Below, one piece after another: positions 4,853-63,261 of a stretch of DNA of 64,000 bases. How positions within the stretch are numbered: the stretch's first letter is position 1; the number at the start of each line of letters is the position of its first letter. A program made the translations under genes and the position numbers. The notes under the pieces were generated by a model. The model was not told the DNA's origin and did no database searches. It saw nothing but the letters and a program-made list of their open reading frames with translations. The DNA comes from Paractinoplanes ovalisporus (GTDB lineage: Bacteria; Actinomycetota; Actinomycetes; Mycobacteriales; Micromonosporaceae): contig NZ_JAENHP010000003.1 in assembly GCF_016834655.1 (NCBI RefSeq), positions 124,001 through 188,000 of the forward strand, in the 5' to 3' direction.

Positions 4853-5571
4853 GACGTCCTCCCCAGATAGGCGTCGATGACCACGGCGTCGCCGAGCACC
4901 CGGGCCGGTTCCCCGTCGGCGATGACCCGGCCCGTGTCCATGCAGATCAGCCGGTCCACGACCTGCACCAGCACGTGCACGATGTGCTCGATCCAGACGA
5001 TCGCGGTGCCGGCCGACCGCACCTGCCGCACGGCGGCGACCAGCTCCGCGGCCTCGGCGTCGGTGAGCCCGCCGCCGATCTCGTCCAGCAGCACCACCCG
5101 CGGCCCGGTGGCCAGGCAGCGGGCGAGTTCGAGCCGCTTGCGGTGCAGCAGCCCCAGGCTTTCGGCGCGCCGGTTGGCCAGCGTGGTCAGCCCGCACTCG
5201 TCGAGGACGTCGGCGCAGCGGCGGTGGGCGGCGTGGCCGCGCAGTCCCGCGCCGTGGGTGGCGGCGACGACCACGTTCTCGAGCACGGTCATGCCGCCGA
5301 ACGGGCGCGGGATCTGAAACGCCCGCCCGATGCCCATCCGGGCCCGCTGGTCGGGCCGGGCCCGGGTGATGTCCCGCCCGTCGAAGCGCACCGTGCCGCC
5401 GGTCGGCCGGACCGCCCCGGCCAGCACGTTGAGCAGGGTCGTCTTGCCGGCGCCGTTGGGCCCGACGATGCCGACCGCCTCGCCCGGCGCGACCGTGAAG
5501 CCGACGTCGCGCAGCACCGGCAGGTCGCCGTAGCGCACGCTCAGGTCGCGTCCCTCCAGAACGGCGGTCAC
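4849..5571 (-). CDS. livG: ABC transporter ATP-binding protein, LivG family
   Basis: The 240-residue partner of LivF has Walker A GPNGAGKT near 36-43, the long LivG-type insert after it (GIGRAFQIPRPFGGMTVLEN) and Walker B VVLLDE. The signature helix reads LGLLHRKRLELARCL, where family members usually have a Gly-Gln or similar pair before RKRLELARAL; the Gln is His here, a small departure that could weaken nucleotide sandwiching. The start is GTG at 5571, overlapping the stop of the binding-protein gene as GTGA. Residues and context leave little doubt about the family; substrate is not shown. Confidence 0.9.
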   Translation of the reverse strand: MTAVLEGRDLSVRYGDLPVLRDVGFTVAPGEAVGIVGPNGAGKTTLLNVLAGAVRPTGGTVRFDGRDITRARPDQRARMGIGRAFQIPRPFGGMTVLENVVVAATHGAGLRGHAAHRRCADVLDECGLTTLANRRAESLGLLHRKRLELARCLATGPRVVLLDEIGGGLTDAEAAELVAAVRQVRSAGTAIVWIEHIVHVLVQVVDRLICMDTGRVIADGEPARVLGDAVVIDAYLGRTS

Positions 5572-6869
5572 CGGCGGCCGTACTGCTGGAGCTTGGCCGC
5601 GGTCGGCACGTTCGGGTCGGACGAGTTCTCGACCAGCACGAACTCGACCTTGTCGCGGCTGTCCGTCGACTTGATCCACTGTCCGCCGAGGATCGGGGTC
5701 GCGACCACGTTGGCGTTCGGGCCCTGACCCCAGCGCAGCCGGCCGACCGGGGTCTCGACGTCGAGCGTGCCGATCGTCCTGGCCACGGCGGCCCGGTCCT
5801 TCGGGTTGCCGGTGGCGGTGAGCGCGGCCGCGGCCACGTCGAACAGGGCCAGGCTGGGCCCGAGCTGCTGGTTCCACTGCTTGCCGGTGGCGGTGCGGTA
5901 GCCGTCGGCCAGGGACTTTCCGCCCGCCTTGGTCAGCGACGACGCGTACGGATAGGTCGGGGTCCAGTAGGCGCCGCCGGCCACCCCGATGCCCAGGTCG
6001 CCGAGCGCCTCGATCTGCGACGGGAACAGGCCGGTCTTGGCGACCTGGCAGATCTTGGGCCGGAAGCCCTGCTGCGCGGCCTGCCGCCAGAACGTGGCGA
6101 AGTCGGGCGGGATCGGGAACGAGTTGAAGATCTCGCAGCCCTCGGCCTTGAACCGGGCGATCTGGGCCGAGAAGTCGTTGGTGCCGTTGGTGTAGGCGCC
6201 GGGGTCGACGATCGTGAAGCCCTCCTGCTCGAGCAGCGGCCCGAGGGCGGCCCGGATGGCGTTGCCGTCGGAGTCGTTGGGCCACATCACGCCGACCTTG
6301 CGGTTGGTCGGCACCTGGGGCCACTCGTGGGCGTACATGGAATGGAACTGCTCGACGCCGAAGCAGAAGTGGTAGGTGAACTTGTAGGCGTTCTTCTCGT
6401 CGGGCTTCGCGCCGCGCCCGAAATACCAGGCCTCCCACGGCACTACCGTGGACACGCAGGGCACGCCGGCCGCCTCGCTCGCGTCGGAGACCGGGTTGAC
6501 CGTCTCGGGGGTCGAGGTGGTGAGCATCAGGTCGACCGCGTCGGAGTTGATCAGGTCGTTGGCGACCTGGGCGGCGCGCTGCGGGTTGGACTGGCTGTCC
6601 CGGTCCAGGATCTGTACGGAGTATTTCGTGCCGCCCGCCGTGAGGCCGCCCGCGAGCGCCTTGCGGGCCAGGTCGAGCACGTACGCGTCGGGTTCGCCGA
6701 AGCCGGCCGCGGCGCCCGTCCGGGGGCTGACAAAGCCGATCTTCAGGGTGCCGGTGTTCTCGTCGCTGCTGTTGTCGCTGCCCAGGCCGCCGCAGGCCGA
6801 CAGCATGGTTCCGGTAAGGCCGAGGCCGGTCGCGCGGAGCAGATCGCGCCGGGTGGCATGGATCTCCAT
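5568..6869 (-). CDS. ABC transporter substrate-binding lipoprotein, amino-acid/amide (LivJ-like) type
   Basis: This 433-residue protein starts MEIHATRRDLLRATG, a twin-arginine-like leader, and has a lipobox LSAC with Cys26 as the probable lipidation site, followed by a Ser/Asn/Asp-rich linker. The mature part opens with TLKIGFVSPRTGAAAGFG, the first strand of Leu/Ile/Val-binding-type periplasmic proteins. It captures the solute outside the membrane for LivHM. A strong ribosome site (AAGGGAGG) precedes the ATG by about five bases. It is the first gene of the operon and is transcribed from a promoter with -35 TTGACG and -10 TACCGT lying against the IclR-type site at 6929-6945. Confidence 0.9.
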   Translation of the reverse strand: MEIHATRRDLLRATGLGLTGTMLSACGGLGSDNSSDENTGTLKIGFVSPRTGAAAGFGEPDAYVLDLARKALAGGLTAGGTKYSVQILDRDSQSNPQRAAQVANDLINSDAVDLMLTTSTPETVNPVSDASEAAGVPCVSTVVPWEAWYFGRGAKPDEKNAYKFTYHFCFGVEQFHSMYAHEWPQVPTNRKVGVMWPNDSDGNAIRAALGPLLEQEGFTIVDPGAYTNGTNDFSAQIARFKAEGCEIFNSFPIPPDFATFWRQAAQQGFRPKICQVAKTGLFPSQIEALGDLGIGVAGGAYWTPTYPYASSLTKAGGKSLADGYRTATGKQWNQQLGPSLALFDVAAAALTATGNPKDRAAVARTIGTLDVETPVGRLRWGQGPNANVVATPILGGQWIKSTDSRDKVEFVLVENSSDPNVPTAAKLQQYGRR

Positions 6870-6966
6870 ATGTGCCTCCCTTGTGGACCGCGACGGTAGG
6901 AGTGGTTTGCGTCACACGTCAATCGAGTGTTCGAATAACTGGAACGACCGCTGAAAGAGTGCACGC
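6870..6966. promoter_or_regulatory. Divergent livJ/iclR promoter region with 17-bp operator at 6929-6945
   Basis: Towards the transporter operon the order is operator GTTCCAGTTATTCGAAC (6945-6929), 6 bp, -35 TTGACG (6922-6917), 18 bp, -10 TACCGT (6898-6893), then the binding-protein ribosome site. The operator has GTTC/GAAC ends and lies 22 bases before the iclR ATG, where it could also repress iclR. A second copy with 14 of 17 matching bases is at 7770-7786 in the same geometry. Confidence 0.7.
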
Positions 6967-7779
6967 ATGACGACGCCCCCGGCCGCTTCCACGTCGCAGT
7001 CGCTCGAGCGTGGGCTGCGCATCCTCACCGAGTTCGCCGAGAACGGCCCCGTGCTGGGCATCGCCGACCTGGCCCGCGCGGTCGACCTCAACCGCAGCAC
7101 CACCCACCGGTACGTGGCGACGCTGGCCGGGCTCGGCTTCCTGCAGCAGGACCCGGACACCCGCAAGTACTCGCTCGGCCCGCGCGTGGTCGACCTCGGG
7201 TTCGCCGCGATCAGCTCGATGGAGATCACCGGCGTGGCCGCCGCCCACCTGCAGACCCTCTCGGACGAGACCGGCTGCGCGGCCAGCATGGCCGTGCTCG
7301 ACGGGGCCGACATCGTCTATGTCGAGCGGCGCCGCAGCCGGCGGCAGGCGGGCGTGGCGGTCGACCTCAACCTGCACGTCGGGTCGCGGCTGCCGGCCTA
7401 CTGCACGTCGATGGGCAAGGTGCTGCTGGCCTACCGCGATCCGGCGGCGCTGCGGCCGCTGCTCGACCGCATGGACCTGGCCCGGCGCGGGCCGCGGACC
7501 ATCACCGTACGGGAACAGCTGGTGTCCGCCCTGTCCCAGGTGCGGCAGGCCGGCATGGCGGTCAACGACGAGGAGCTCGCGCCCGGGTTGAGGTCGCTGG
7601 CCGCGCCGATCCGCGACCGCTCCGGCCATGTGGTCGCGGCGATCAACATCGCGGTGCACCTGACCACCTGGACCGCCTCGGTCGACTCGGTGGTCGCCAA
7701 GCTCTCGGGCCCGCTGCTGCGCACGGCGGCCGACATCTCGCACCAGCTGGGCTACCGTTCTGGGTCCCCGTTCGAATAG
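6967..7779 (+). CDS. IclR-family transcriptional regulator
   Basis: A 270-residue protein with the standard IclR layout. A winged helix-turn-helix covers about residues 12-75 (SQSLERGLRILTEF, then LARAVDLNRSTTHRYVATL). The ligand-binding domain contains LPAYCTSMGKVLLAY near 143-157 and the C-terminal AAINIAVH core. IclR proteins bind a small effector and act as repressor or activator. The gene is divergent from the uptake operon and is followed by the second aldehyde dehydrogenase. The shared sites at 6929 and 7770 lie just upstream of both -35 boxes, which suggests activation of the two metabolic promoters. The effector may be the transported compound or its aldehyde. Confidence 0.92.
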   Translation: MTTPPAASTSQSLERGLRILTEFAENGPVLGIADLARAVDLNRSTTHRYVATLAGLGFLQQDPDTRKYSLGPRVVDLGFAAISSMEITGVAAAHLQTLSDETGCAASMAVLDGADIVYVERRRSRRQAGVAVDLNLHVGSRLPAYCTSMGKVLLAYRDPAALRPLLDRMDLARRGPRTITVREQLVSALSQVRQAGMAVNDEELAPGLRSLAAPIRDRSGHVVAAINIAVHLTTWTASVDSVVAKLSGPLLRTAADISHQLGYRSGSPFE

Positions 7780-7821
7780 TTGAAACACCGCGTTGATAAG
7801 TGGGAAACGCGTGCCTAGGGT
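7770..7821 (+). promoter_or_regulatory. Second IclR-type site and leaderless promoter of the aldehyde dehydrogenase
   Basis: The site GTTCGAATAGTTGAAAC (7770-7786) includes the iclR stop codon. After 6 bp comes -35 TTGATA (7793-7798), a 17-bp spacer and -10 TAGGGT (7816-7821), with the ATG seven bases further at 7829. The message is therefore probably leaderless. The operator to -35 distance equals that at the livJ-side promoter. Confidence 0.68.
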
Positions 7822-7828
7822 CGGCGGC

Positions 7829-9292
7829 ATGGTGCTGCTGGACGAGAACCGCTGGAACGACCTGCTCTTCACCGACGGCGCCTGGCGTGCCGGCAGCGGC
7901 GAGACCGTCGACGTGACCGAGCCCGCCACCGGCGGTGTGCTGGGCCGGATCACCCTGGCCACGCCCGCCGACGTCGAGGCCGCTGCCCGGTCCGCCGCCT
8001 CCGCCCAGAAGGAGTGGGCTGCTCAGCCGCACTTCGCGCGGGCCGCCGTGCTGCGCAAGGCCGCCGCGCTGTGGGCCGAGCACGCCGAGGAGATCTCGTG
8101 GTGGAACGTCCGCGAGGTCGGCGCGATCCCCGGGATGGCCGGGTTCGCCGTGCATACCGCCGAACAGGAATGCTGGGAGGCGGCGTCACTGCCCGGCCGC
8201 CCGTACGGAGAACTGATCCCCTCGGGCGAGCCGCGCCTGTCGATGATCCGCCGCTATCCGGTCGGTGTCGTCGGTGTCATCGCGCCGTTCAACGTGCCCA
8301 TCATCCTGGCCATCCGGTCGGTGGCGCCCGCTTTGGCCCTCGGCAACGCGGTGTTGTTGAAGCCCGATCCCCGTACGGCGGTGACGGGCGGCCTCGTGCT
8401 GGCCCGGATCTTCCAGGAGGCCGGCCTGCCCGACGGGCTGTTCCAGGTGTTGCCCGGCGGCGCTGATGTGGGCGAGGCCCTGGTCACCGACCCGCGGGTG
8501 CCGGTCATCTCGTTCACCGGCTCGACCGGGGCCGGACGCCGCGTGGGGGAGCTCGCCGGGAAGCACCTCAAGCGGGCCCACCTGGAGCTGGGTGGCAACT
8601 CGGCGTTGGTGGTGCTGTCGGATGCCGACGTGGATTCCGCGGTGAACCTGGCCGCGTGGGGGAGCTGGTTCCACCAGGGGCAGATCTGCATGACCACCGG
8701 GCGGCACCTGGTGCACGAGAGCCTGTACGACGACTTCGTGGAGCGGCTGGCCGACAAGGCGGGGAAGTTGCCGGTCGGTGACCCGGCCCGTGATCAGGTC
8801 GCGTTGGGGCCGGTCATCGACGCGGGGCAGCGCGACAAGATCCACGACCTGGTTACGTCCAGCGTCGGTGGTGACGTGCGGCTGGCTGCGGGTGGGTCGT
8901 ACGAAGGGTTGTTCTATCGGCCGACTGTGCTGGCGGGGGCTTCCGCGTCTACGCCGGCGTTCGCGCAGGAGATCTTCGGGCCGGTGGCGCCGGTGGCCCG
9001 TTTCGGGAGTCTGGAGGAGGCGGTGGCCCTGGCTGGGGAGTCGGAGTATGGGCTGTCGCTGGGGATTGTGACCCGGGATGCGATGCGTGGGGTCGAGTTG
9101 GCTGATCTGATTCCGACCGGGATCGTGCACATCAATGACCAGACTGTGAACGACGAGGCGAATGCGCCGTTCGGTGGGGTGGCCGCCTCGGGTACGGGGT
9201 CTCGTTTTGGCGGAGCTGCGGCCAATATTGAGGCGTTTACCGAGACGCGGTGGATCACTGTGCGCAGCCAGCCGGCCGCCTACCCGTTCTAA
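7829..9292 (+). CDS. Aldehyde dehydrogenase, benzaldehyde/vanillin dehydrogenase subgroup
   Basis: The 487-residue enzyme has every catalytic residue expected of NAD(P)-dependent aldehyde dehydrogenases: general base Glu253 in HLELGGNS, nucleophile Cys287 in HQGQICMT, and GSTGAGRRVG of the nucleotide-binding loop near 231-240. The C-terminal HINDQTVNDEANAPFGG block and the ending YPF are shared with the paralogue at 772-2229 and with benzaldehyde-type dehydrogenases. It would oxidise an aldehyde, probably aromatic, to the acid in the cytoplasm. A TTG at 7793 is open in frame but coincides with the -35 box, so the ATG at 7829 is preferred. It is the likely working partner of the Gln253 enzyme. 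Confidence 0.9.
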   Translation: MVLLDENRWNDLLFTDGAWRAGSGETVDVTEPATGGVLGRITLATPADVEAAARSAASAQKEWAAQPHFARAAVLRKAAALWAEHAEEISWWNVREVGAIPGMAGFAVHTAEQECWEAASLPGRPYGELIPSGEPRLSMIRRYPVGVVGVIAPFNVPIILAIRSVAPALALGNAVLLKPDPRTAVTGGLVLARIFQEAGLPDGLFQVLPGGADVGEALVTDPRVPVISFTGSTGAGRRVGELAGKHLKRAHLELGGNSALVVLSDADVDSAVNLAAWGSWFHQGQICMTTGRHLVHESLYDDFVERLADKAGKLPVGDPARDQVALGPVIDAGQRDKIHDLVTSSVGGDVRLAAGGSYEGLFYRPTVLAGASASTPAFAQEIFGPVAPVARFGSLEEAVALAGESEYGLSLGIVTRDAMRGVELADLIPTGIVHINDQTVNDEANAPFGGVAASGTGSRFGGAAANIEAFTETRWITVRSQPAAYPF

Positions 9293-50559: not shown

Positions 50560-50576
50560 CCTGTAGGGTGGCGCCC

Positions 50577-51032
50577 GTGGAAGAGATCGACCGGGCGATC
50601 GTGGGCGCCCTCACCGCGGACGGCCGCCTGTCGTACACCGACCTGGCCGAGCGGGTCGGCCTGAGCGTGTCGGCCGTCCATCAGCGCGTCCGCCGCCTCG
50701 AACAGCGGGGCGTGATCTCCGGTTACACGGCCAAGGTCTCGTACGAGGCCCTGGAACTGCCGTTGACGGCGTTCGTGGCGATCCGCCCGTTCGACCCGTC
50801 ACAGCCCGACGACGCGCCCGAGCGGCTGGCCCACCTCCCCGAGATCGACTCGTGCTACTCGGTCGCCGGGGAGGACTTCTACATGCTGCTGGTCCGGGTC
50901 GGCAGCCCGGCCGACCTGGAACGCCTCCTGCAGGAGATCCGGACGGCGGCCAACGTCACCACCCGGACGACGGTCGTGCTGTCCACCCCGTACGAGAACC
51001 GTCCCCCGCGCATCACCGCCGAGCTGGCCTAG
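50577..51032 (+). CDS. Lrp/AsnC-family transcriptional regulator
   Basis: The 151-residue protein has an N-terminal helix-turn-helix (RLSYTDLAERVGLSVSAVHQ, then VRRLEQRGVISGY) and the RAM ligand-binding domain (CYSVAGEDFYMLLVRVGSPA). Lrp proteins sense amino acids; the lysine-degradation cluster nearby is a candidate target. The GTG at 50577 is seven bases after TAGGGT (50564-50569), so a leaderless start is favoured over the GTG at 50568, which lies within that box. The stop shares CTAG with the methyltransferase gene. Confidence 0.92.
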   Translation: MEEIDRAIVGALTADGRLSYTDLAERVGLSVSAVHQRVRRLEQRGVISGYTAKVSYEALELPLTAFVAIRPFDPSQPDDAPERLAHLPEIDSCYSVAGEDFYMLLVRVGSPADLERLLQEIRTAANVTTRTTVVLSTPYENRPPRITAELA

Positions 51033-52169: not shown

Positions 52170-53531
52170 TCACGACTGGGCGGACGCCTCCTGCTTGCGC
52201 CACCAGTCCTGACCGGACTGGGGGAGCGTGTCGATCGGGTCGTAGTAGGCGTAGAGCTTGGACAACGCCTCGTCGTCGTTCTGCTCGATCGAGGTGCGGT
52301 AGTTCTTCGTCCAGTACGAGATGCCGTGCTCGCGGTCGTACTCGCTGACCATGTGCACCCAGCGCTTGCCCACGAACGGCACGTCGCAGACGATCCGCGG
52401 GGTGGCGTAGCCCGGCAGGTAGCCCATCATGTCGTGCTGCAGCTGCTGGGCGTGCCACACCGGGACGCGCCAGTGCTCGGCGTTGGGGATCATGTCGCAC
52501 ATGTAGAAGTAGTACGGCAGGATGCCGGCCTCGCCCTGCAGTCCGAAGCACAGGTCGAGCAGGTCGGCCGTGGTCGCGTTGACGCCCCGCATGAGCACGC
52601 CCTGGTTGCGCACGTCGCGCACGCCGACCTCGAGCAGGGTCTGTGCGGCCTGGGCGACCAGCGGGGTCAGCGAGTTCACGTGGTTGACGTGGGTGTGCAC
52701 GGCCAGGTTGACGCCGCGGCGTTGAGCGGTGATGGCGACCCGGTGCAGGCCCTCGACCACGTCAGGCTGCAGCCAGTGCTGGGGCAGGCCCATCAGCGCC
52801 TTGGTGGCCAGGCGGATGTCGCGCACGGTGGGCACCGAGAGCAGACCCATCAGGTACGCCTCGAGCTGCTTCCACGGCACGTTGGCGACGTCGCCGCCGC
52901 TGACCACCACGTCGCGTACGCCGGGGTGGGCCTTGAGATAGGTCAGGTGGGCGTCGTAGCGGTCCACCGGCTTGAGGGTGAGTTTCAGCTTGTCGACCGT
53001 GGGGGTGCTGTTGCCGACCAGGTCCATGCGGGTGCAGTGGCCGCAGTACTGCGGGCAGGTCGACAGCAGCTCGGCCAGCACCTTGGTCGGGTAGCGGTGG
53101 GTCAGGCCCTCGGCGACCCACATGTCGTGCTCGTGCAGCGAGTCGCGGGTGGCGTGCGGGTGTGACGGCCAGTCGAGGTGGCGGTCGGTGGCCACCGGCA
53201 GCATGTAGCGCCGGATCGGGTCGGCGTAGAACGCCTCCGTGTCGGGGGTGCGATCCGGGACCATGGTGTTGAGCATCTGCGGCGGGATCAGCATCGACAT
53301 CGTGGCCAGGCGTTTCTGGTCGGTCTCGAGGTCGGTGTAGAAGCTCTCGTCGAGCAGGTCGCCCATGACGGCGCGCAGCTGCTTGAGGTTCTTGACGCAG
53401 TTGACCCGCTGCCACTGGGCCGACTGCCACTGCTCGGCGGTCACGTCGCGCCACCCGGGGAACCGGGTCCAGTCGGGCTCGACCAGGGTGCGGCGGCGGT
53501 ACTCGTACGGCTGACCGGCGGGCTGGGTCAC
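52170..53531 (-). CDS. kamA: Lysine 2,3-aminomutase (radical SAM, PLP)
   Basis: The 453-residue protein has the radical-SAM cluster Cys159, Cys163 and Cys166 in CPQYCGHC and the lysine-aminomutase body: VVVSGGDVANVPWKQLEAYL, NLAVHTHVNHVNSLTP and QGVLMRGVNA. It converts L-lysine to L-beta-lysine using SAM, a 4Fe-4S cluster and PLP. It is divergent from the kdd-kamDE-kal operon, which supplies the next steps, so lysine degradation is the natural role; beta-lysine for osmoprotection or antibiotic synthesis is an alternative. The GTG start has a GGGAG ribosome site. Confidence 0.93.
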   Translation of the reverse strand: MTQPAGQPYEYRRRTLVEPDWTRFPGWRDVTAEQWQSAQWQRVNCVKNLKQLRAVMGDLLDESFYTDLETDQKRLATMSMLIPPQMLNTMVPDRTPDTEAFYADPIRRYMLPVATDRHLDWPSHPHATRDSLHEHDMWVAEGLTHRYPTKVLAELLSTCPQYCGHCTRMDLVGNSTPTVDKLKLTLKPVDRYDAHLTYLKAHPGVRDVVVSGGDVANVPWKQLEAYLMGLLSVPTVRDIRLATKALMGLPQHWLQPDVVEGLHRVAITAQRRGVNLAVHTHVNHVNSLTPLVAQAAQTLLEVGVRDVRNQGVLMRGVNATTADLLDLCFGLQGEAGILPYYFYMCDMIPNAEHWRVPVWHAQQLQHDMMGYLPGYATPRIVCDVPFVGKRWVHMVSEYDREHGISYWTKNYRTSIEQNDDEALSKLYAYYDPIDTLPQSGQDWWRKQEASAQS

Positions 53532-53573
53532 GGCGGCTCCCTGATCGATCGTTCGGACCAGTCAGACGCTACT

Positions 53574-53622
53574 GGAGAATTTCCGGTCTGGTAAACAGTG
53601 GGCCGGAGGATTTACGGTTTGG
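53574..53622. promoter_or_regulatory. Paired 18-bp direct repeats in the kamA/kdd divergent promoter
   Basis: GGAGAATTTCCGGTCTGG (53574-53591) and GGAGGATTTACGGTTTGG (53605-53622) match at 15 of 18 bases with starts 31 bp apart, about three helical turns. The first lies mostly between kamA -35 TTTACC and -10 TAGCGT. They look like binding sites for one regulator. Confidence 0.62.
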
Positions 53623-53664
53623 ATCCGCGGCGAGCTTCTTGATTTCTTGGTGAGGGTGGGGTTG

Positions 53665-54681
53665 ATGGTGTCTTCTGTCGGTCTTGACCGGGTTCTCGAG
53701 CCGGCCGGGGTGCTGCCGCAGGCGGCCTGGCGACTGGATGCGGCCCCCGAGATCAAAGACGACGAGGTTCGCGTACGGGTGGAGCGCCTGAACCTGGATG
53801 CCGCGAGTTACCGCCAGCTGGCCGAGAAGCACTCCGGCGACGGTGCGGCGATCCGCTCGGAGGTTCTGGCGATCGTCGAGACGCGCGGGAAGATGCACAA
53901 CCCGGTCACCGGTTCCGGCGGCATGCTGATCGGCGTGGTCGACGAGGTGGGCCCGCGCTCGCCGCTGGGTGTCAAGAAGGGCGACCGGGTCGCCACGCTC
54001 GTCTCGCTGACCCTGACCCCGCTGCGGATCACGGACGGCCTGGCGAACTGGGACGGTCGTTCCGAGCAGGTCCCGGCCTCGGGCACCGCCATTCTGTTCG
54101 GCCGCTCCATCGTCGGCGTGCTGCCCGACGATCTGTCCCCGGCGCTGGCCTTGGCCGTCTACGACGTTTGCGGCGCGCCCGCGCTCACTGACCGGATTGT
54201 CCGCGGCTACTCTTCTCCGCGCGTTGCCGTGCTCGGTGGTGCCGGCAAGAGCGGTTCCTTGGCTCTCGCCGCAGCCCGGTTGGCCGGTGCTCGAACAATC
54301 GGACTTGTCCGAAATGAACAGGAGCGAGCGGCGCTGGCCGCGGCCGGCGTGGCCGACGAGGTGGCCATCGCCGACGCCCGTAACCCGGTCGACGTGGCCG
54401 CCGCGGTGGGGGAGCCGGCCACGATCACGGTCGTCTGCGTCGACGTCCCCGGCTGCGAGCACGGCGCGATCCTGGCCACCGCCCCCGGCGGCACCGTGAT
54501 CTTCTTCTCGATGGCGACCAGCTTCCCGGCCGCCGCGCTGGGCGCCGAAGGCCTCGCCGCCGACGTCACGATGCTGATCGGCAACGGGTACGTGCCCGGC
54601 CACGCCGAGTTCGCGGTCGACCTCGTCCGCCGTGTCCCGGCGGTCCGGTCTCTCTTCGAGGCGCGGCTCGCGAGAGACTGA
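53665..54681 (+). CDS. kdd: L-erythro-3,5-diaminohexanoate dehydrogenase
   Basis: The 338-residue protein matches the size of clostridial Kdd (about 343). It has a GroES-like N-terminal half (LDAASYRQL) and a Rossmann domain VAVLGGAGKSGSLALAAARL. It would oxidise 3,5-diaminohexanoate, the KamDE product, to 5-amino-3-oxohexanoate with NAD(P). The ATG at 53665 has a GAGGGTGGGG ribosome site. The family call rests on similarity plus the neighbouring kam genes. The next gene starts five bases after its stop. Confidence 0.9.
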   Translation: MVSSVGLDRVLEPAGVLPQAAWRLDAAPEIKDDEVRVRVERLNLDAASYRQLAEKHSGDGAAIRSEVLAIVETRGKMHNPVTGSGGMLIGVVDEVGPRSPLGVKKGDRVATLVSLTLTPLRITDGLANWDGRSEQVPASGTAILFGRSIVGVLPDDLSPALALAVYDVCGAPALTDRIVRGYSSPRVAVLGGAGKSGSLALAAARLAGARTIGLVRNEQERAALAAAGVADEVAIADARNPVDVAAAVGEPATITVVCVDVPGCEHGAILATAPGGTVIFFSMATSFPAAALGAEGLAADVTMLIGNGYVPGHAEFAVDLVRRVPAVRSLFEARLARD

Positions 54682-54686
54682 CGCCC

Positions 54687-56201
54687 ATGACTGAGGTGCT
54701 TTACACCCACGGCCGCTTCTACTCCGCCGCCGACCCGCGGGCCACCGCCATGCTGGTCCGCGACGGAAGGATCGCCTGGCTCGGCGACAGCGGCGACGCC
54801 CCGCGGGCCGACCGGACCGTCGAGCTGGACAACGGCCTGGTCACCCCGGCCTTTGTCGACGCCCACCAGCACGCCACCGATACCGGCCTGGCCATCGACG
54901 GGCTCGACCTGTCCGCCGTCCGTGACCGGAGCGAGCTGCTGGACGCGGTCGCCGCCTTCGCCTCGACCCGGGCGCCCGAGGCCGTCGTGCACGGTCACGG
55001 CTGGGACGAGTCGACCTGGGCCGACCAGACGCTGCCGACCGCGGGCGAGCTCGACCGTGCCGCCGGGGGCCGCCGGGTCTACCTGTCGCAGGCGTCGGTG
55101 CATTCCGCCCTCACCTCACCGGCACTGCTCGCCGCGGCCGGACTCCCGACGGGCGAGAGCCTGGTCAAGGAGGAACAGCACCACGCCGTACGGGCCATCG
55201 CCCTCAACGACCTCACGCCGGCGCAACGCACCACCGCGCAGCGGGCCGCCCTGGCCAAGGCCGCGTCGCTGGGCATCGCCGCCGTGCACGAGTGCGGCGG
55301 CCCCGGCACGTCCAGCGAGGCCGACCTCACCTCGGTGCTCGCGCTCAGCGGTCAGGGCCTGCCGCAGGTGTTCGGCTACTGGGGTGAGCTGGGCGGGGCG
55401 CTGAAGGCCAAGGAACTGGGCGCGGTCGGCGCGGCCGGTGACCTGTACGCGGACGGCGCTCTCGGGTCCAGCACCGCCCACGTCCGCTCGGAGTATTCCA
55501 CCGGCGGGTGCGGCGAGGCCTTCGTGAGCGCGTCCCAGGCCGCCGACCACCTGATCGACTGCATCACCGTCGGCGTGCAGGGCGGTTTCCACGCGATCGG
55601 CGACGCCGCGATCGAGACCGTCCTGGAGGGGTTCGCGCTGGCCGCCAAGTCGGTCGGCGTCGACGCCGTGCGCGAGGGCCGGCACCGCATCGAGCACGTC
55701 GAGCTGATCGACAAGGCGATGATCGCCCGGATGGTCGAGTTCGGGGTGATCGCCTCGGTGCAGCCGGTCTTCGACGAGCTGTGGGGCGGCCCCGACCGCA
55801 TGTACGCGCAGCGCCTCGGCGTCGAGCGGGCGATGGCGTCCAACCCGATCGGCGCCATGCACGCCACCGGGGTGCAGCTGGCCTTCGGTTCCGACTCGCC
55901 GGTGACGCCGCTCGACCCGTGGGCGGTCGTGGTGGCGGCCGCGGCCCCGCGCAACCCGGTCTACCGGATGAACGTGCGGGCGGCGTTCGCGGCCTCGACC
56001 AGCGGCGGTTGGCGGGCGGCTCTGGTCGACGACGCGGGGGTGCTGGCACCGGGCAAGTCGGCCACCTTCGCCGTCTGGGACACCCCGGGCGGCGTCCGGG
56101 CCGGTCTGCCCGACCTGCTGCCCGACGTGGAGGGCGTGGCCCCGGCGCGGCCGGTGTGCCGGCGGACGGTCCTGCACGGGCAAACGATCTACGAAGTCTG
56201 A
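54687..56201 (+). CDS. Amidohydrolase family 3 (YtcJ-like)
   Basis: The 504-residue protein has an urease-type barrel: VDAHQHATDTGL supplies the first metal His pair, HGHGWDESTW is the YtcJ-type block, then FHAIGDAAIETVLEGF, RIEHVELIDKAMI and AFGSDSPVTPLDPW with the late Asp. It hydrolyses an amide or cyclic amide in the cytoplasm. Between kdd and kamD it occupies the place where a clostridial cluster would have kce. Hydrolysis of an N-acyl lysine or a lactam of an aminohexanoate is conceivable, but that is speculation. Spacing of 5 and 16 bases shows it is in the operon. Confidence 0.88.
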   Translation: MTEVLYTHGRFYSAADPRATAMLVRDGRIAWLGDSGDAPRADRTVELDNGLVTPAFVDAHQHATDTGLAIDGLDLSAVRDRSELLDAVAAFASTRAPEAVVHGHGWDESTWADQTLPTAGELDRAAGGRRVYLSQASVHSALTSPALLAAAGLPTGESLVKEEQHHAVRAIALNDLTPAQRTTAQRAALAKAASLGIAAVHECGGPGTSSEADLTSVLALSGQGLPQVFGYWGELGGALKAKELGAVGAAGDLYADGALGSSTAHVRSEYSTGGCGEAFVSASQAADHLIDCITVGVQGGFHAIGDAAIETVLEGFALAAKSVGVDAVREGRHRIEHVELIDKAMIARMVEFGVIASVQPVFDELWGGPDRMYAQRLGVERAMASNPIGAMHATGVQLAFGSDSPVTPLDPWAVVVAAAAPRNPVYRMNVRAAFAASTSGGWRAALVDDAGVLAPGKSATFAVWDTPGGVRAGLPDLLPDVEGVAPARPVCRRTVLHGQTIYEV

Positions 56202-56217
56202 CGACGAGGAGCTGAGG

Positions 56218-57774
56218 GTGGCGGGGAAGCTGGATCTGGACCCGCGGACGGTGCGCACAGCGCGCCGGCTCGCGGCCAGGGCGGGGCAGCCGGTGGTCGA
56301 CCTGGCCCGCTCGCACACCACCGTGTCGGTGGAGCGGGCGGTGCTGCGGCTGGCCGGGGTGCACGGGGCCGACCAGGACGGCATCCCCTGGGTGAACCGC
56401 CTGGTGGACGCCGTGCGGGCCGACGTCGGGCTCGGGCACGGCGTCGCGGTCCCGGTGTTCCACGCGATGCGGAGCACCGGCGTTGACGACATCACCGTGC
56501 TCGCGCAGAAGGCCGCCGCGGGTGCGGTCCGGTTCGACCTGCCCTCCACCCGGGCCGAGTCCACTGCGGCCCGCCGTGCCGCCCGGTCCCAGGCCGGCGC
56601 CGGTCTCAAGGTCGTGGACCGGCGGCGGCGGGAACGCGACCGGCTGATCAAACGGTTCGGAGATCCCCGGCAGCGGCCCTGGATCTATCTGATCGTCGCC
56701 ACCGGGGACATCTACGAGGACATCCCGCAGGCCCAGGCGGCCGCCCGGGCCGGGGCCGACGTGATCGCGGTGATCCGCTCGACCGGGCAGTCGCTGCTCG
56801 ACTACGTGCCCGAGGGCGCCACCCGCGAGGGCTTCGCCGGCACGTACGCCACCCAGGAGAACTTCCGGCTCATGCGGGCCGCCCTGGACGAGACGTCGAA
56901 GGAGCTCGGCCGGTACGTGCGGCTGACCAACTACGCGTCGGGGCTGTGCATGCCCGAGATCGCCGCCCTGGCCGGGATGGAACGCCTCGACATGATGCTC
57001 AACGACAGCATGTACGGCATCCTGTTCCGCGACATCAACCCGATCCGTACCTTCGTCGACCAGCGGTTCTCGCGGCAGGTCCACGCCCGCGCCGGCATCA
57101 TCATCAACACCGGCGAGGACAACTACCTGACCACCGCCGACGCCGTCGAGGCGGCCCACACGGTGACGGTGTCGCAGCTGCTCAACGAGTTCTTCGCCCA
57201 CGAGGCCGGGCTCGAGGACTGGCAGCTCGGCCTCGGCCACGCCTTCGAGATCAACCCGGATCTGCCCGAGTCGTTCCGCCTCGAACTCGCCCACGCGCTG
57301 CTGGCCCGTGAACTGTTCCCGGACGCGCCGCTGAAATGGATGCCGCCGACCAAGCACATGACCGGCGACGTGTTCCGCGGCAACCTGCTCGACGGGTTCT
57401 TCAACCTGGTCGGGGCGCTCACCGGGCAGGGCATCCTGCTCGTCGGCATGATGACCGAGGCCGTCGTCACGCCGTGGCTGTCCGACCGTGACGTGGCCCT
57501 GCAGAACGTGCGCTACGTGCTCAACGGCGCCGGCAGCCTGCACGAGGACTTCGTCCCGGCCCCCGGCGGATTCATCCAGAGCCGCGCCCACCATGTGCTG
57601 TCCGAGGCGATCGAGCTGCTCGAGAAGATCGTCGACGACTCGCTGCTCGACGCCATCGCCGACGGCACCTTCGGGATCATGAAACGGCCGGCCGACCGGG
57701 GCAAGGGCCTCGACGGCGTCGCGAAACACGACGAGGACTACTACAACCCCGTCACGGAGGCGCTGGAACAGTGA
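56218..57774 (+). CDS. kamD: Lysine 5,6-aminomutase alpha subunit
   Basis: The 518-residue protein is the KamD type throughout: DITVLAQKAAAGAVRFDLPS, YLIVATGDIYEDIPQAQAAA, STGQSLLDYVPEGATREGF, YASGLCMPEIAALAGMERLD and WMPPTKHMTGDVFRGNLLDG. With KamE it forms the PLP- and adenosylcobalamin-dependent mutase that moves the terminal amino group of beta-lysine (or D-lysine) from C6 to C5. A GAGGAGCTGAGG ribosome region precedes the GTG. The stop overlaps kamE by four bases. Confidence 0.95.
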   Translation: MAGKLDLDPRTVRTARRLAARAGQPVVDLARSHTTVSVERAVLRLAGVHGADQDGIPWVNRLVDAVRADVGLGHGVAVPVFHAMRSTGVDDITVLAQKAAAGAVRFDLPSTRAESTAARRAARSQAGAGLKVVDRRRRERDRLIKRFGDPRQRPWIYLIVATGDIYEDIPQAQAAARAGADVIAVIRSTGQSLLDYVPEGATREGFAGTYATQENFRLMRAALDETSKELGRYVRLTNYASGLCMPEIAALAGMERLDMMLNDSMYGILFRDINPIRTFVDQRFSRQVHARAGIIINTGEDNYLTTADAVEAAHTVTVSQLLNEFFAHEAGLEDWQLGLGHAFEINPDLPESFRLELAHALLARELFPDAPLKWMPPTKHMTGDVFRGNLLDGFFNLVGALTGQGILLVGMMTEAVVTPWLSDRDVALQNVRYVLNGAGSLHEDFVPAPGGFIQSRAHHVLSEAIELLEKIVDDSLLDAIADGTFGIMKRPADRGKGLDGVAKHDEDYYNPVTEALEQ

Positions 57775-58511
57775 GCATCATTCGCCCGTACGGGGATACG
57801 ACCGGCGACGGCATGGTCCAGCTGTCGTTCACGCTGCCCGTCCCGCACGACAAGCGGGCCGAGGGCGCCGCGGTGCAGCTCGCCAACAAGATGGGCATGG
57901 ACCCGGCCCTGCTCGTGCACGCCAAGCAGATGGGCGACGGGTTCACGTTCTTCGTCGTCTACGGCAAGGTCAACCACCTCGTGGACACCGACCAGGTGCA
58001 GGTCGTCGAGCGTGACTTCCCGCTGCTGAGCGCCACGGAGGTCAACGCGGCCATCAAGCGGCGGCTGCGGCGGCGGCTCAACGTGGTCGGGGCCTGCATC
58101 GGCACCGACGCCCACACCGTCGGCATCGACGCCATCCTCAACCTCAAGGGGATCGCGGGGGAGAAGGGGCTGGAGTACTACAGCGAGCTGTCGGTGACGA
58201 ACATGGGCGCCCAGGTCTCGGTGCCGGAGCTGGTCGAGACCGCCCGGGAGCGCAAGGCCGACGCGGTGCTCGTCTCCCAGGTCGTCACCCAGCGTGACGC
58301 CCACCTGCAGAACACCCGCGCCATGTCGGCCGCCTTCCGGGAGGCCCTGCCGGTCGGCAAACGACCGCTTCTGATCGTCGGCGGGCCGCGCTTCGACGAG
58401 CTGATGGCCGACGACCTCGGCGTCGACCGGATCTTCACCCGCGGCACGACACCCCGCGAAGTCGCCTCCTACCTCGTCCATGCCCTAGCCGCCGGGAGCC
58501 CCACTAAATGA
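57771..58511 (+). CDS. kamE: Lysine 5,6-aminomutase beta subunit (B12-binding)
   Basis: The 246-residue subunit has a dimerisation/PLP-proximal N-domain and a B12-binding domain with DAHTVG (Asp113, His115, Gly118) as the base-off cobalamin site. Lys126 stands 11 residues after His115, the same spacing as His133 and the PLP-linking Lys144 of the clostridial enzyme, so the PLP Schiff base is expected there. Later [18 protein letters not shown] closes the Rossmann domain. The start is GTG in a GTGA overlap with kamD. Confidence 0.95.
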
Positions 58512-58873
58512 TCACCGTGACCCACCGCCGGTACGTCCCCTACTCGCACGCCCACTACGCGGGCAACCTGGTCGACGGCGCCTACTCGCTCGGCCTGTTC
58601 GGCGACGTCGCGACCGAGGTCTGCATCCAGCTCGACGGCGACGAGGGCCTGTTCGCCTCCTACGACGACGTGCAGTTCAAGGCCCCGATCCAGGCCGGTG
58701 ACATCCTCGAGATCGTCGCCACCGTCGTGCACATGGGCACCCGCTCCCGCAAGATCGAGTTCGCGTCGCGGGTTGTGGCCCGGGGCACGGGTGGGTCGGC
58801 CGCTTCCGTTCTGGACGAGCCGATCGTCGCGGTGACCGCCACGGGCACGGTCGTCGTACCCCCCAAACCGTGA
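58508..58873 (+). CDS. kal: 3-aminobutyryl-CoA ammonia-lyase (hotdog fold)
   Basis: The 121-residue hotdog protein has [20 protein letters not shown] near the start, [20 protein letters not shown] in the middle and [14 protein letters not shown] on the late strand, as in Kal of lysine-fermenting bacteria. It removes ammonia from 3-aminobutyryl-CoA to give crotonyl-CoA. The overlap ATGA with kamE and GTGA with the next gene shows tight coupling. Related hotdog dehydratases exist, so the context carries much of the call. Confidence 0.88.
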
Positions 58874-60120
58874 CGACCGCCGTGTGCGTGGACGTCGGAT
58901 CCACGTACACCAAAGCGGCTCTGATCGACCTCGACGCGGGCGTGCTGGTGCGCCGGGCCGAGGTGCCGACCACCTCCGGCAGCGACGTGCTGACCGGACT
59001 CGATCAGGCCGTGGCCGAGGTCGGCGGCGGCGACCGGCTCTATGTGTGCTCGTCGGCCGGGGGAGGGCTGCGGCTGGCCGTGGTCGGCTACGAGTCGCTG
59101 GTCACCGCCGAGGCCGGCCACCGGGTCGGGCTGTCCGCCGGCGCCCGCGTGGTGCACGTGGCGGCCGGGCCCCTCGACGGTGGCGGCATCACGGCGCTGC
59201 GCGAGAGCCGACCGGACGTGATCCTGCTGGTCGGCGGCACCGACGGCGGCGACGGTGAGGTGCTGCTGCACAACGCGCACCGGCTGGCGACCTCCCGGCT
59301 GCGCGTGCCGGTGGTGGTGGCGGGCAACGCGGACGTACGGGATGAGGCCGCGGCCCGCCTGACCGGGCGCCGCGTTCCGGTGACCGTCACGGGCAACGTG
59401 CTGCCCCGCATCGGCGAGCTCGACCCCGGCCCGGCGCGCGCGGCCATCCGGTCGGTGTTCCTGCGCCACGTGATCGGCGGCAAGAAACTGTCCAGGGGGC
59501 CGCGGTTCGCGTCGCTGGTGCGGGCGGCCACCCCCGACGCCGTTCTGGCCGGAGTGGAGCTCCTGGCCGACCTGACGGGGTACGGCGTGCTGGTCGTGGA
59601 CGTCGGCGGCGCGACCACCGACGTGTACTCGGCGCTGGTGCCCGACGCGGAGGCCGAGACCGGACCGCGGCGCGACGTGGCGGGGACGCTGTGGCGCTCC
59701 AGAACTGTGGAGGGTGATCTCGGCGTCGCTGTCGGTGCCGACGGGACCCGGGCCGCCGCGGCCGCCGAGAAGTTGGCACTTTCGGAAACCGGACACCGCT
59801 CAAGTGACGTTGCGTTAGCCGCCGCGGCGGCCACGGTCGCGCTGCGCAGGCACGCGCGCGGTCACTCGTCCGCTCCTGGTCAGCCCCGCACGGGTGGGCG
59901 CGACCTGCGCGACGTCCGGCTCGTGGTCGGATCGGGCGGGGTTCTGCGGCACGGCGGCGGCGCGTATGTGCTGGACGCGGTGCTGTCGGATCATGCCGGC
60001 GGCTGGGCCGCCCCCACCTCGGCCCGCGCGGTGATCGACTCGCGCTACGTGCTGGCCGCCGCCGGCCTGTTGTCTATCGATCATCGTCACGCCGCGGCGG
60101 CGCTGGTGAACAGCCTGTAG
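58870..60120 (+). CDS. MutL/GlmL-type reactivating ATPase for the B12 aminomutase
   Basis: The 416-residue protein is an actin-fold (ASKHA) ATPase: [18 protein letters not shown] at the start, [50 protein letters not shown] and [12 protein letters not shown]. It matches GlmL/MutL proteins next to glutamate and ornithine mutases, thought to replace damaged cobalamin. Here it closes the kamDE-kal operon with a GTGA overlap, so it should reactivate KamDE. Clostridial clusters use KamB and KamC instead. About 25 residues near 335-360 are low-complexity. Confidence 0.9.
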
Positions 60121-60847
60121 CCCGAACGGGTACCGGACATGACACGCCGAGGAACGCGACACGCCCGGCAGCGGGGACGCCGGTTGACAGGACCGCGGGG
60201 GACGGACGTACCGTCGTCGAATCCTGAGCACGGCGAGCGGCACTGTTCGCTTCGTTCCTCCACCCACTGGCCCGCAGTCCTCGCAGGGGTCGCGCGTTCA
60301 GCCAGGTCCAGGGGGTGGGGGTCGGCGGGGCGGCGCGGACCGGTCGCGCCCGAGTGGGCCCGAGGACAGAACGGCGCCAGTAGACAACGGCGTGACCCGC
60401 GCAGCCGGCGCGGAGCGCGTCGGTCCGAAGGCGACCGCGACCTCCGTACGGCCCACCGGCCGTGCCCCGGATGGCAGAAAGCACGCGAGGCGCGACCGTT
60501 CCCCGGTCGCGCTTCGCTTTGCCCGGGCGTCGCCCTTTGGCTTTTGCGCTTCCGCGTTGCGTCTCGGCTCGGGGGCTTCGGCTGTCGCCTTTGGCTTTGG
60601 CTTTCGGGCTTCGGCTCTTGGGCGCAACCGCTCACGCAGGTCGCCGTGGTGGGTTTCGCGTTCTGGACGCGCAGCGGCCAGCGAAGCCCGCCGCGGTCCC
60701 CGCGGGAGCGACGGCCCGTACGCACCACCCCGCTGGGACATCCGGCTCTTGATCTTTCTCTCTCGTCGTTCGATTGTTCTCTTATCGATGCACTCTCCGC
60801 CCGCACTGTCCGTTTGTGGCCAGAGGGCGCCAGGTAGCCTCTCGCGG
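60121..60847. other. 727-bp region without a recognisable gene; low-complexity right half
   Basis: No reading frame on either strand looks coding. A TTGACA sits at 60184. Around 60525-60625 the plus strand has recurring CTTTGGCTT, TTCGGCTT and GCTTCGG words of lower GC, an imperfect 6-9-bp repeat. A hairpin lies at 60490-60512. The -10 TAGCCT at 60835-60840 serves the lnt gene. A non-coding RNA or decayed gene is possible. Confidence 0.5.
60490..60512. terminator. Hairpin, possible terminator in the kam/lnt gap
   Basis: GCGCGACCG pairs with CGGTCGCGC over a five-base loop. It is far (370 bases) from the MutL-like stop, so it may end a separate small transcript instead. Confidence 0.5.
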
Positions 60848-62476
60848 GTGGAGATGACGTTGCAGCCCCCGGCTTCACCGCAGGTCACGGGGCCGGGCGA
60901 GGCGCCGCGACCGGTGCCCCGCCGATGGGCGGTCGCGCTCAGTGTTCTCGCCGGTGTCGCGCTGCTGCTCGCGCTCCCGCCCTACGGGCTGTGGTGGCTC
61001 TCGCCGGTCGGGGTGGCGCTGCTGGCCGCGGCCACCCACCGCCGCCGGCTGTTCCGCGCGTTCGGGCTGGGCTCGATCGCCGGGCTGGTGCTCTTCCTGC
61101 CGCTGCTGTGGTGGACCACGTTCGCCGCCGGCTGGCTGCCGTGGGCCCTCCTGTCGGTCGCCCAGGCCGCGATCCTCGGCCTGATGGGGGCGGCCGGGGC
61201 CTGGCTGTCGCCGCTGATCGACCGCTGGCGCGGGCTGTGGCCGCTGATCCTGGGGCTGGTCTGGGTGGCGCAGGAGGCGCTGCGTGACCGGGCGCCGTTC
61301 GGCGGCTTCCCGTGGGGCCGGCTGGCCTTCAGCCAGGACGAGGCCCCGGCCCTGCACATGGCCGCGTACGGGGGTGCCCCGCTCGTCACATTCTTCGTCG
61401 CCGCCGCCGGGGGTGCCCTGATCGCGCTGGCCTGGCGGCCCTGGCGCGCCGGTTCCGCTGTTCCGCGGGCCCGCCGCCCCCTCGGCCCGGTGATCGGGTT
61501 CGCGGTCGCCCTGGCCGCGCTGATCGCCGGCCCGCTGCTCGTGCCGGTCGCCTCGAGCGGCGGCGAGAAGGCGGTCGTCGCGATCGTGCAGGGCAACGTG
61601 CCCCGCCTCGGTCTCGACTTCAACGCCCAGCGCCGCGCCGTGCTCGACAACCACGTCACCGCCACCGAGAAGCTCGCGGCCGAGGTCGCGGCGGGCCGGC
61701 AGAAGCAGCCTGACCTGGTGGTCTGGCCCGAGAACTCCAGCGACATCGACCCGCTGCGCAACACCGACGCGGCGGCGGTCATCTCCCAGGCGGCCGACAC
61801 GATCAACGCGCCGATCCTGGTCGGCACCGTGCTGCGCACCGACGTGCCGGGCGACATCGAGAACGCCGGCATCCTGTGGAACCCGGGCACCGGCCCCGAC
61901 ATCGACCAGAAGTACGTGAAACGCCACCCCGTGCCGTTCGCCGAGTACATGCCGCTGCGCTCGATCGCCCGGCTCGTCACCGACAAGGTCGACCTGGTGC
62001 GCAACATGCTCTCCGGCGACCACCCCGGGGTCCTGCACAGCGGCGCGGTCACCGTCGGCGACGTGATCTGCTTCGAGGTGGCGTACGACGACATCGTCCG
62101 CGACACTGTGATCGGAGGGGCACAGGTTCTCGCCGTGCAGACCAACAACGCGACGTTCAACGAGGCCGAGGCCCGCCAGCAGCTCGCCATGGTGCGGCTG
62201 CGGGCGGTGGAGCACGGCCGCGAGTCGCTGATGGTCTCCACGGTCGGGGTGTCCGCGTTCGTCGGCACAGCCGGTCAGGTCTACGACTCGAGCGGCTTCA
62301 ACGTCGGCGCGGTGATGGTGCGTGACATGAGTCTGGGCGGAACGACTACGCTGGCGACTCGTTTGGGCCATTGGCCCGAGATGGTGATGGTCGCATTGAC
62401 GATCGTCGCCCTGGCCGGCGCGCTTGGATTGCGACGCCGCCGGCGCACCACGAACGACGATGCGGAGGCACGGTGA
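60848..62476 (+). CDS. lnt: Apolipoprotein N-acyltransferase
   Basis: The 542-residue protein has about seven membrane helices (to about 220 and one at the C-terminus) around a nitrilase-like periplasmic domain. The catalytic triad is visible: Glu in DLVVWPENSSDID, Lys in QKYVKRHPVPFAEYMP, and Cys in VGDVICFEVAYDD. It adds the third acyl chain to lipoproteins such as the transporter binding protein at 5568-6869. The GTG at 60848 follows TAGCCT by seven bases, so it is probably leaderless; an ATG at 60854 is the alternative. Coupling to the mannosyltransferase gene mirrors the fused Lnt-Ppm1 of mycobacteria. Confidence 0.95.
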   Translation: MEMTLQPPASPQVTGPGEAPRPVPRRWAVALSVLAGVALLLALPPYGLWWLSPVGVALLAAATHRRRLFRAFGLGSIAGLVLFLPLLWWTTFAAGWLPWALLSVAQAAILGLMGAAGAWLSPLIDRWRGLWPLILGLVWVAQEALRDRAPFGGFPWGRLAFSQDEAPALHMAAYGGAPLVTFFVAAAGGALIALAWRPWRAGSAVPRARRPLGPVIGFAVALAALIAGPLLVPVASSGGEKAVVAIVQGNVPRLGLDFNAQRRAVLDNHVTATEKLAAEVAAGRQKQPDLVVWPENSSDIDPLRNTDAAAVISQAADTINAPILVGTVLRTDVPGDIENAGILWNPGTGPDIDQKYVKRHPVPFAEYMPLRSIARLVTDKVDLVRNMLSGDHPGVLHSGAVTVGDVICFEVAYDDIVRDTVIGGAQVLAVQTNNATFNEAEARQQLAMVRLRAVEHGRESLMVSTVGVSAFVGTAGQVYDSSGFNVGAVMVRDMSLGGTTTLATRLGHWPEMVMVALTIVALAGALGLRRRRRTTNDDAEAR

Positions 62477-63261
62477 GCGAGGCGGAAGGCTACCCCGGGG
62501 TGGGGCGGGTCCTGGTGGTGATCCCGACCTACAACGAGGCGGACAACATCCGCCTGATCACCGAGCGGGTGCGCCGTGCGGTCCCCGAGGTCGACATCCT
62601 GGTCGCCGACGACAACTCGCCCGACGGCACCGGCGGCATCGCCGACGAGCTGTCCGAGGCCGACGACCACATCTTCGTGCTGCACCGGGCCGGCAAGGAG
62701 GGGCTCGGGGCGGCGTACAAGGCCGGTTTCGCCTGGGCCAAGAACAAGGGCTACGACGCGGTCGTCGAGATGGACGCCGACGGCTCCCACGCCCCCGAGG
62801 AGCTGCACAAGCTGCTCGACGCGCTGGGTGACACCGACGCCGTGCTCGGCACCCGCTACATCCCCGGCGGCAGCGTGCACAACTGGCCGGTGCACCGGCT
62901 GCTGCTCTCTCGCGGCGGCAACATCTACATCCGGATGGCGCTGCGCATGCCGTTCCGCGACGCGACCGGCGGCTACCGGGCCTACCGCATGCCCGTCCTC
63001 GACGAGATCAACTTCGAGACGGTGGCGTCGACCGGCTACTCGTTCCAGGTCGAGCTGGCCTGGCGGGCCTACCAGGCCGGGTTCCGCATCGCCGAGGTGC
63101 CCATCACGTTCACCGAGCGCGAACACGGCGTCAGCAAGATGAGCGGCAACATTTTCAAGGAACAGCTGCTCAGGGTCACTCTGTGGGGTGTGCAGGCCCG
63201 TCGCGAGGCGGTCCGCAAGCGGTTCCGCAAGCGGGCCGACGAGGGTTCCACCTGGCCGTGA
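62473..63261 (+). CDS. Polyprenol-monophosphomannose synthase (GT2, Ppm1/DPM type)
   Basis: The 262-residue glycosyltransferase has the GT2 pattern VVIPTYNEADNIRLI, VADDNSPDGTGGIAD, the DxD-type EMDADGSHAPEEL, LGTRYIPGGSVHNWP and RDATGGYRAYR. It transfers mannose from GDP-mannose to polyprenyl phosphate, the donor for glycoprotein and lipomannan mannosylation. No membrane helices are seen, as in bacterial DPM enzymes that rely on the partner Lnt. The GTG overlaps the lnt stop (GTGA). FxsA follows 53 bases later. Confidence 0.95.
   Translation: MSEAEGYPGVGRVLVVIPTYNEADNIRLITERVRRAVPEVDILVADDNSPDGTGGIADELSEADDHIFVLHRAGKEGLGAAYKAGFAWAKNKGYDAVVEMDADGSHAPEELHKLLDALGDTDAVLGTRYIPGGSVHNWPVHRLLLSRGGNIYIRMALRMPFRDATGGYRAYRMPVLDEINFETVASTGYSFQVELAWRAYQAGFRIAEVPITFTEREHGVSKMSGNIFKEQLLRVTLWGVQARREAVRKRFRKRADEGSTWP

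Follow-up and report, generated by a model that had tools for sequence, protein, structure and literature searches.

Lysine fermentation and the Paractinoplanes ovalisporus locus

Lysine fermentation in Fusobacterium and clostridia is carried out by the enzyme set KamA, KamDE, Kdd, Kce and Kal, and the same set appears to be encoded in the 11.4 Mb genome of Paractinoplanes ovalisporus, where kamA, kdd, kamD, kamE and kal lie in a 64 kb stretch of contig C33 (hereafter the window) and a Kce-type gene of the β-keto acid cleavage enzyme (BKACE) class lies on another contig, C44. The two loci very probably form a split pathway for the degradation of L-lysine to crotonyl-CoA, with the C44 gene at a conserved site of its own and the amidohydrolase gene (amh) embedded in the cluster not replacing kce; the activities, the direction of flux and aerobic use are predictions from sequence. 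In common with the fermenters, Kdd, KamD, KamE and Kal pass their equivalog models, whereas here Kce is unlinked and falls below the curated Kce cut-off, KamA is very divergent, and the host is an actinobacterium with a presumed aerobic life.

Two further described systems offer comparison. The Kat variant of Candidatus Cloacamonas likewise has one step set off from the canonical cluster in gene content or location; there, however, a transaminase replaces kal, whereas here kal is present and kce is elsewhere (PMC3149608). With BKACE group G2/Kce (2y7d; group described in PMC4922564), the C44 protein shares the Zn ligands, Glu14, Glu143, Arg226 and Asp231, although it scores 273.6 bits against the curated cut-off of 382 for Kce (NF052387) and represents an actinobacterial subfamily encoded near fur and ygfZ. 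The pathway itself is known; what is new is that it is split over two loci, that its Kce belongs to an actinobacterial subfamily scoring under the curated threshold, and that KamA is retained. Among the titles and starts of abstracts covered (for the broadest topic, 12 of 3,342 records), a weak scope with most subscription journals outside it, no paper was found on this pathway in actinobacteria and no text tying a C44-type gene to this cluster.

By the reaction scheme of the established lysine pathway (PMC3149608 and PMC4922564), KamA would convert L-lysine to β-lysine and KamDE would convert β-lysine to 3,5-diaminohexanoate, from which Kdd would yield 3-keto-5-aminohexanoate; the C44 Kce-type BKACE, encoded at a fur-ygfZ-kce-asparaginase locus, would cleave this intermediate with acetyl-CoA, and Kal would convert 3-aminobutyryl-CoA to crotonyl-CoA and ammonia. 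A MutL/GlmL-like protein would probably serve as an accessory, and the kam genes appear to be interleaved into an actinobacterial amh-lnt/ppm1 neighbourhood.

Gene layout of the cluster

The kamA-like gene for a radical S-adenosylmethionine aminomutase (52170-53531, minus strand; predicted conversion of L-lysine to L-β-lysine) is divergent from a run of plus-strand genes that begins with kdd, predicted to encode L-erythro-3,5-diaminohexanoate dehydrogenase (53647-54681; NF052381, 260.7 bits, cut-off 200), and continues with amh (54687-56201; Amidohydro_3, YtcJ-like; PF07969, 225.9 bits). There follow kamD (56218-57774; NF052384, 706.5 bits, cut-off 600; PDB relatives 8t0v and 1xrs), kamE for the B12-binding β subunit of lysine 5,6-aminomutase (57771-58511; NF052385, 349.7 bits, cut-off 280; PDB relatives 9q1a and 1xrs), kal for 3-aminobutyryl-CoA ammonia lyase (58508-58873; NF052388, 181 bits, cut-off 160), for which the best solved relative is the β-alanyl-CoA ammonia lyase 4mtu, and a MutL/GlmL-like gene (58870-60120; PF13941, 391.5 bits; TIGR01319 over its cut-off, NF040745 below). 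Linkage of kamD, kamE, kdd and kal, all four over their equivalog cut-offs, places the cluster in the lysine to crotonyl-CoA pathway.

A first-pass annotation of this DNA had read the same gene set and order, which the coordinates and models confirm with the qualification that KamA stays below the cut-offs of TIGR00238 and TIGR03820; its four-base overlaps from kamD onward recur at kamD/kamE, kamE/kal and kal/mutL, and its placement of an amidohydrolase between kdd and kamD holds, with gaps of 5 and 16 bases. The MutL/GlmL-like protein, which we take to be a probable aminomutase reactivation or accessory factor, is encoded in 60 of 111 loci that carry both kdd and kamD; none of the Kribbella clusters showed it, and the gene may be dispensable sometimes.

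A Kce-type enzyme at a distant locus

The search of the genome for a DUF849/Kce protein that the first-pass annotation had proposed, made with PF05853 (E <= 0.001), returned only C44:728531-729340 and C60:261849-262565, both outside the window contig, in agreement with its statement that kce is missing around the cluster. The C44 match belongs to a Kce-like BKACE gene at C44:728522-729352 (308.4 bits, over the gathering score of 24.8), the product of which has Kce (NF052387) as its best NCBIfam match, the next model scoring 210.1 bits, and Kce 2y7d as its nearest PDB chain. Aligned to 2y7d it keeps Glu14, H46, H48, E143, R226, E230 and D231, and Glu14, H46, H48, R226, E230 and D231 (2y7d numbering) are conserved in 74/74 Kce-type rows, in which certain genes were fetched repeatedly; we take H46, H48 and E230 to be Zn ligands and Glu14 to be the substrate residue of Kce. 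Glu14 is absent from the 10 remaining BKACE rows, of which six represent three genes with 32 to 37% identity and the others are L002, L195 and the PDB chains 3no5 and 3chv; L002 is the distant second host BKACE on C60, which has a gap at that column. The best 120 matches to the C44 protein are all at least 84% identical, and many of its relatives are already named '3-keto-5-aminohexanoate cleavage protein' or enzyme in public sources. The NF052387 score was dropped as a sole test for Kce, since G120, a genome without kdd, encodes a BKACE from a different subfamily that scores as high, and Kce-type proteins were called instead by identity to the C44 protein together with Glu14.

The distribution of Kce-type genes follows that of kdd in three genome samples. 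Among 40 relatives, a Kce-type match of at least 250 bits occurs in 27/27 genomes with kdd and in 0/13 without; among 197 genomes of the class, a Kce-type protein (58 to 100% identity, counting three partial matches in G108, G081 and G157) occurs in 50/52 and 1/145, respectively; and among 250 genomes of the family, with an intact match set at E 1e-100 or better, in 238/239 and 2/11, the 239 including G423 with a weak kdd match only. The nine kdd-negative family genomes without intact Kce are G003, G440, G266, G263, G291, G295, G325, G337 and G353, and no Kce match at 1e-40 was found in G263, G291, G295, G325, G337 or G353. The one kdd-negative class genome with Kce, the single-contig G204, still carries kamDE-kal at L283, where kdd is reduced to a stump of its final part and kamA is missing, and seems to be in the course of losing the pathway.

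Co-occurrence is not accompanied by linkage. The two loci are far apart in single-contig genomes (e.g. positions 5.24 and 1.28 Mb for G010, and 3.57 and 11.48 Mb for G016), and none of 118 kdd loci holds a match of at least 60 bits to the C44 protein, whether at the amidohydrolase position or elsewhere; these loci comprise the window, 80 named loci that were the best from 581 candidates, and 37 others, at 5.8 to 21 kb each except for the window itself and the 3.6 kb L080.

By sequence and co-occurrence, the C44 gene would be the gene for the Kce enzyme of this genome, and its product is filed as a BKACE likely to work like Kce rather than as a member of the NF052387 curated equivalog. One enzyme at a distant locus means that annotation of the cluster only would report a false gap.

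Decay of kce where the cluster has been lost

In the host the gene order is fur, ygfZ, kce and asparaginase, with a four-base overlap of kce and the asparaginase gene, and the order recurs in four other family loci fetched (L239, L240, L254 and L255). The Kce-type loci fetched from other families, each 10 to 16 kb long, contain at least one of fur, ygfZ and an hth gene in 14/14 cases, a count from which L257, the other BKACE of G165 (32% identity), was excluded; none of the three was found in the 12 kb G204 locus (L235).

A congener of the host, G003, has no kdd or kamD match in its genome, and kamE, kal and mutL are absent from its locus. At its ygfZ locus a kce relic remains in frame, with 214/277 codons left at 72.4% identity over aligned codons, a ratio of non-synonymous to synonymous substitution (dN/dS) of 0.56 versus 0.074 for the intact pair G000-G010, a change of HVH to RVH and an Asp at the Glu14 position; ygfZ and the asparaginase gene on either side of it remain ~90% identical to their host counterparts, with dN/dS of 0.15 and 0.18. 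The relic (L284, ~7102-7743) is 63 codons shorter and contains no frameshift or stop, perhaps owing to its position between ygfZ and the overlapping asparaginase gene. Loss of the cluster with a decayed kce makes G003 a natural knock-out. That an unlinked kce decays in a genome without the cluster argues strongly, although from one genome, that kce serves the cluster. The first-pass annotation had allowed that kce lies elsewhere, and it is this option that is supported by the C44 gene, its near-perfect co-occurrence with kdd, and its decay in a congener lacking kdd and kamDE.

A number of observations weigh against the two-locus pathway. The three genome samples overlap, the host genome is counted in each, and the tests take no account of shared ancestry. 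Two kdd-positive class genomes lack Kce (G061, 80% complete; G188, 68% complete), as does one kdd-positive family genome (G433, a 560-contig assembly), and Kce is present in two kdd-negative family genomes (G326, 830 contigs; G345, 440 contigs). Among the nine kdd-negative family genomes without intact Kce, the kce gene was read in G003 alone; weak matches persist in G440 (4.0e-61) and G266 (1.4e-42), some of which may be contig ends, and G291 and G295 are only 82% and 77% complete. The C44 protein stays below the curated Kce cut-off, and the NF052387 score does not discriminate, the 37%-identical BKACE of G120 reaching 283.8 bits. KamA scores 158 bits against the curated cut-off of 525.4 for lysine 2,3-aminomutase (TIGR03820) and 163.5 bits against 199.2 for the KamA family model. 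Some linkage of the amidohydrolase also persists, with amh between kdd and kamD in 90/111 loci carrying both genes. These locus counts were taken from tblastn because the gene caller missed genes, calling none on the G165 loci L207, L257, L121 and L148 and overlooking the amidohydrolase in L216, L229 and L231.

The shortfall against the Kce equivalog leaves some room for a C44 BKACE that acts on another β-keto acid, with the pathway closed by a CoA-transferase and thiolase or by another enzyme, and BKACE groups do differ in their substrates (PMC4922564); retention of Glu14 as in Kce, the match of kce to kdd across genomes and the erosion of kce after kdd loss in G003 nevertheless make this improbable.

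A probable role of KamA beyond the crotonyl-CoA route

Despite its low scores, the sole PDB match of KamA at E <= 0.001 is lysine 2,3-aminomutase 2a5h. The protein keeps the CxxxCxxC motif and the equivalents of 2a5h R134, D293 and D330, which we take to be lysine-binding residues; a plausible candidate for the lysine that carries pyridoxal phosphate, in VGKR, is displaced by one residue in the alignment with 2a5h.

Among the eleven kdd-negative family genomes, kamA and amh are adjacent in all six for which the locus was read, from three genera (G003 at L282; G325, G337, G353 and G440 at L293-L296; G263 at L297, where kamA runs past the contig end), and kdd, kamDE, kal and mutL were not detected at these loci. 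KamA dN/dS is 0.07 to 0.095 among G325, G337 and G353, 0.076 between the window and G003, and 0.18 between the window and G440. KamA is thus still under purifying selection in kdd-less family members where tested, and a further function outside the route to crotonyl-CoA is probable. A divergent KamA that outlives the pathway raises the question of the purpose of β-lysine in these bacteria.

A tentative extension, which we consider possible but less likely than not, would treat KamA and the amidohydrolase as a separate functional unit that makes and processes β-lysine or a conjugate of it (e.g. an N-acyl form) for a non-catabolic end, with KamDE, Kdd, Kal and the unlinked Kce as a detachable module repeatedly lost as a unit while the pair stayed. 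Against a tight pair count the 20 kdd-negative loci with amh and no nearby kamA, and the presence of kamA without amh in some kdd loci.

The distance of KamA from characterised lysine 2,3-aminomutases, and its retention where the downstream genes are lost, would also suit a cluster that acts on a relative of lysine or runs biosynthetically. Lysine degradation is preferred by a wide margin of probability over this quite unlikely alternative: KamA keeps the residues aligned with the presumed lysine-binding positions of 2a5h, KamD, KamE, Kdd and Kal all exceed their equivalog cut-offs, and kdd occurs in 239/250 family genomes, unlike a specialised-metabolite gene. The same breadth suggests that a pathway of anaerobic fermenters is standing equipment of a large actinobacterial family.

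The amidohydrolase as a resident of the lnt/ppm1 neighbourhood

Across the class, an amh orthologue occurs in 31/52 kdd-positive and 69/145 kdd-negative genomes (Fisher p 0.15), at a threshold of 240 bits with two split genes added and with G119, whose 34%-identical match does not reach that threshold, scored among the 21/52 kdd-positive genomes without one. A Kce-type gene is also present in 30/31 kdd-positive class genomes with an amh orthologue, host included. In 20/20 kdd-negative loci read outside the family (of the 69), amh adjoins lnt, ppm1 or both, and the 12 to 16 kb covered showed no kam gene. In a tree of 58 amidohydrolases, kdd-negative rows are scattered among the others; the label changes 7 times, at least 3 of these changes being forced by well-supported branches, and the proteins of kdd-positive genomes form no separate clade. 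The amidohydrolase is absent from between kdd and kamD in 21/111 loci, in 18 of which kdd leads directly to kamD within 129 bases.

Because of its independent distribution, the 20/20 synteny and the interspersed tree, amh looks like a long-standing neighbour of lnt/ppm1 and, by present evidence, not a pathway step. The first-pass annotation had seen an amidohydrolase in place of kce and offered, as its other option, a pathway that ends or branches differently. A replacement of Kce by the amidohydrolase, with a new end or branch at 3-keto-5-aminohexanoate, would be favoured by the usual position of amh between kdd and kamD and its close spacing in the window, but is rejected as highly improbable in the face of clusters that run straight from kdd to kamD, no co-occurrence with kdd, no exclusion of kce, the lnt/ppm1 synteny and the tree.

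The metal-site residues H60, H62, H302, H337 and D403 of the amidohydrolase are near invariant. At the position of residue 252, which is aspartate in 57/58 rows and glutamate in 1/58, a presumably metal-bridging lysine is present in the solved relative 3icj. In the Actinomadura loci L089, L096 and L109, a different gene, which we would name DUF2252-like, occupies the amh position between kdd and kamD, with one more gene in L089 and L109. At L215 (G086, 3249-8972), three genes sit between kdd and the amidohydrolase, and to our eye resemble those for acetate kinase, phosphate acetyltransferase and phosphoketolase.

Neighbouring genes

The closest named kdd loci are those of Actinoplanes and Paractinoplanes. 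To the right of the cluster, the conserved plus-strand neighbours are lnt, predicted to encode apolipoprotein N-acyltransferase (60914-62476; PF20154 and PF00795 on a longer open reading frame (ORF), 60392-62476), and a ppm1-like polyprenol-phosphate glycosyltransferase gene (62473-63261; glycosyltransferase matches below cut-off on a longer ORF, 62371-63261), for which ppm1 is the name we assume. A minus-strand ORF at 60875-62371, apparently conserved, was ruled out as an antisense shadow of lnt. To the left, a plus-strand gene encodes an Lrp/AsnC-type regulator (50568-51032; PF13404/PF01037), a neighbour also in some kdd-negative loci.

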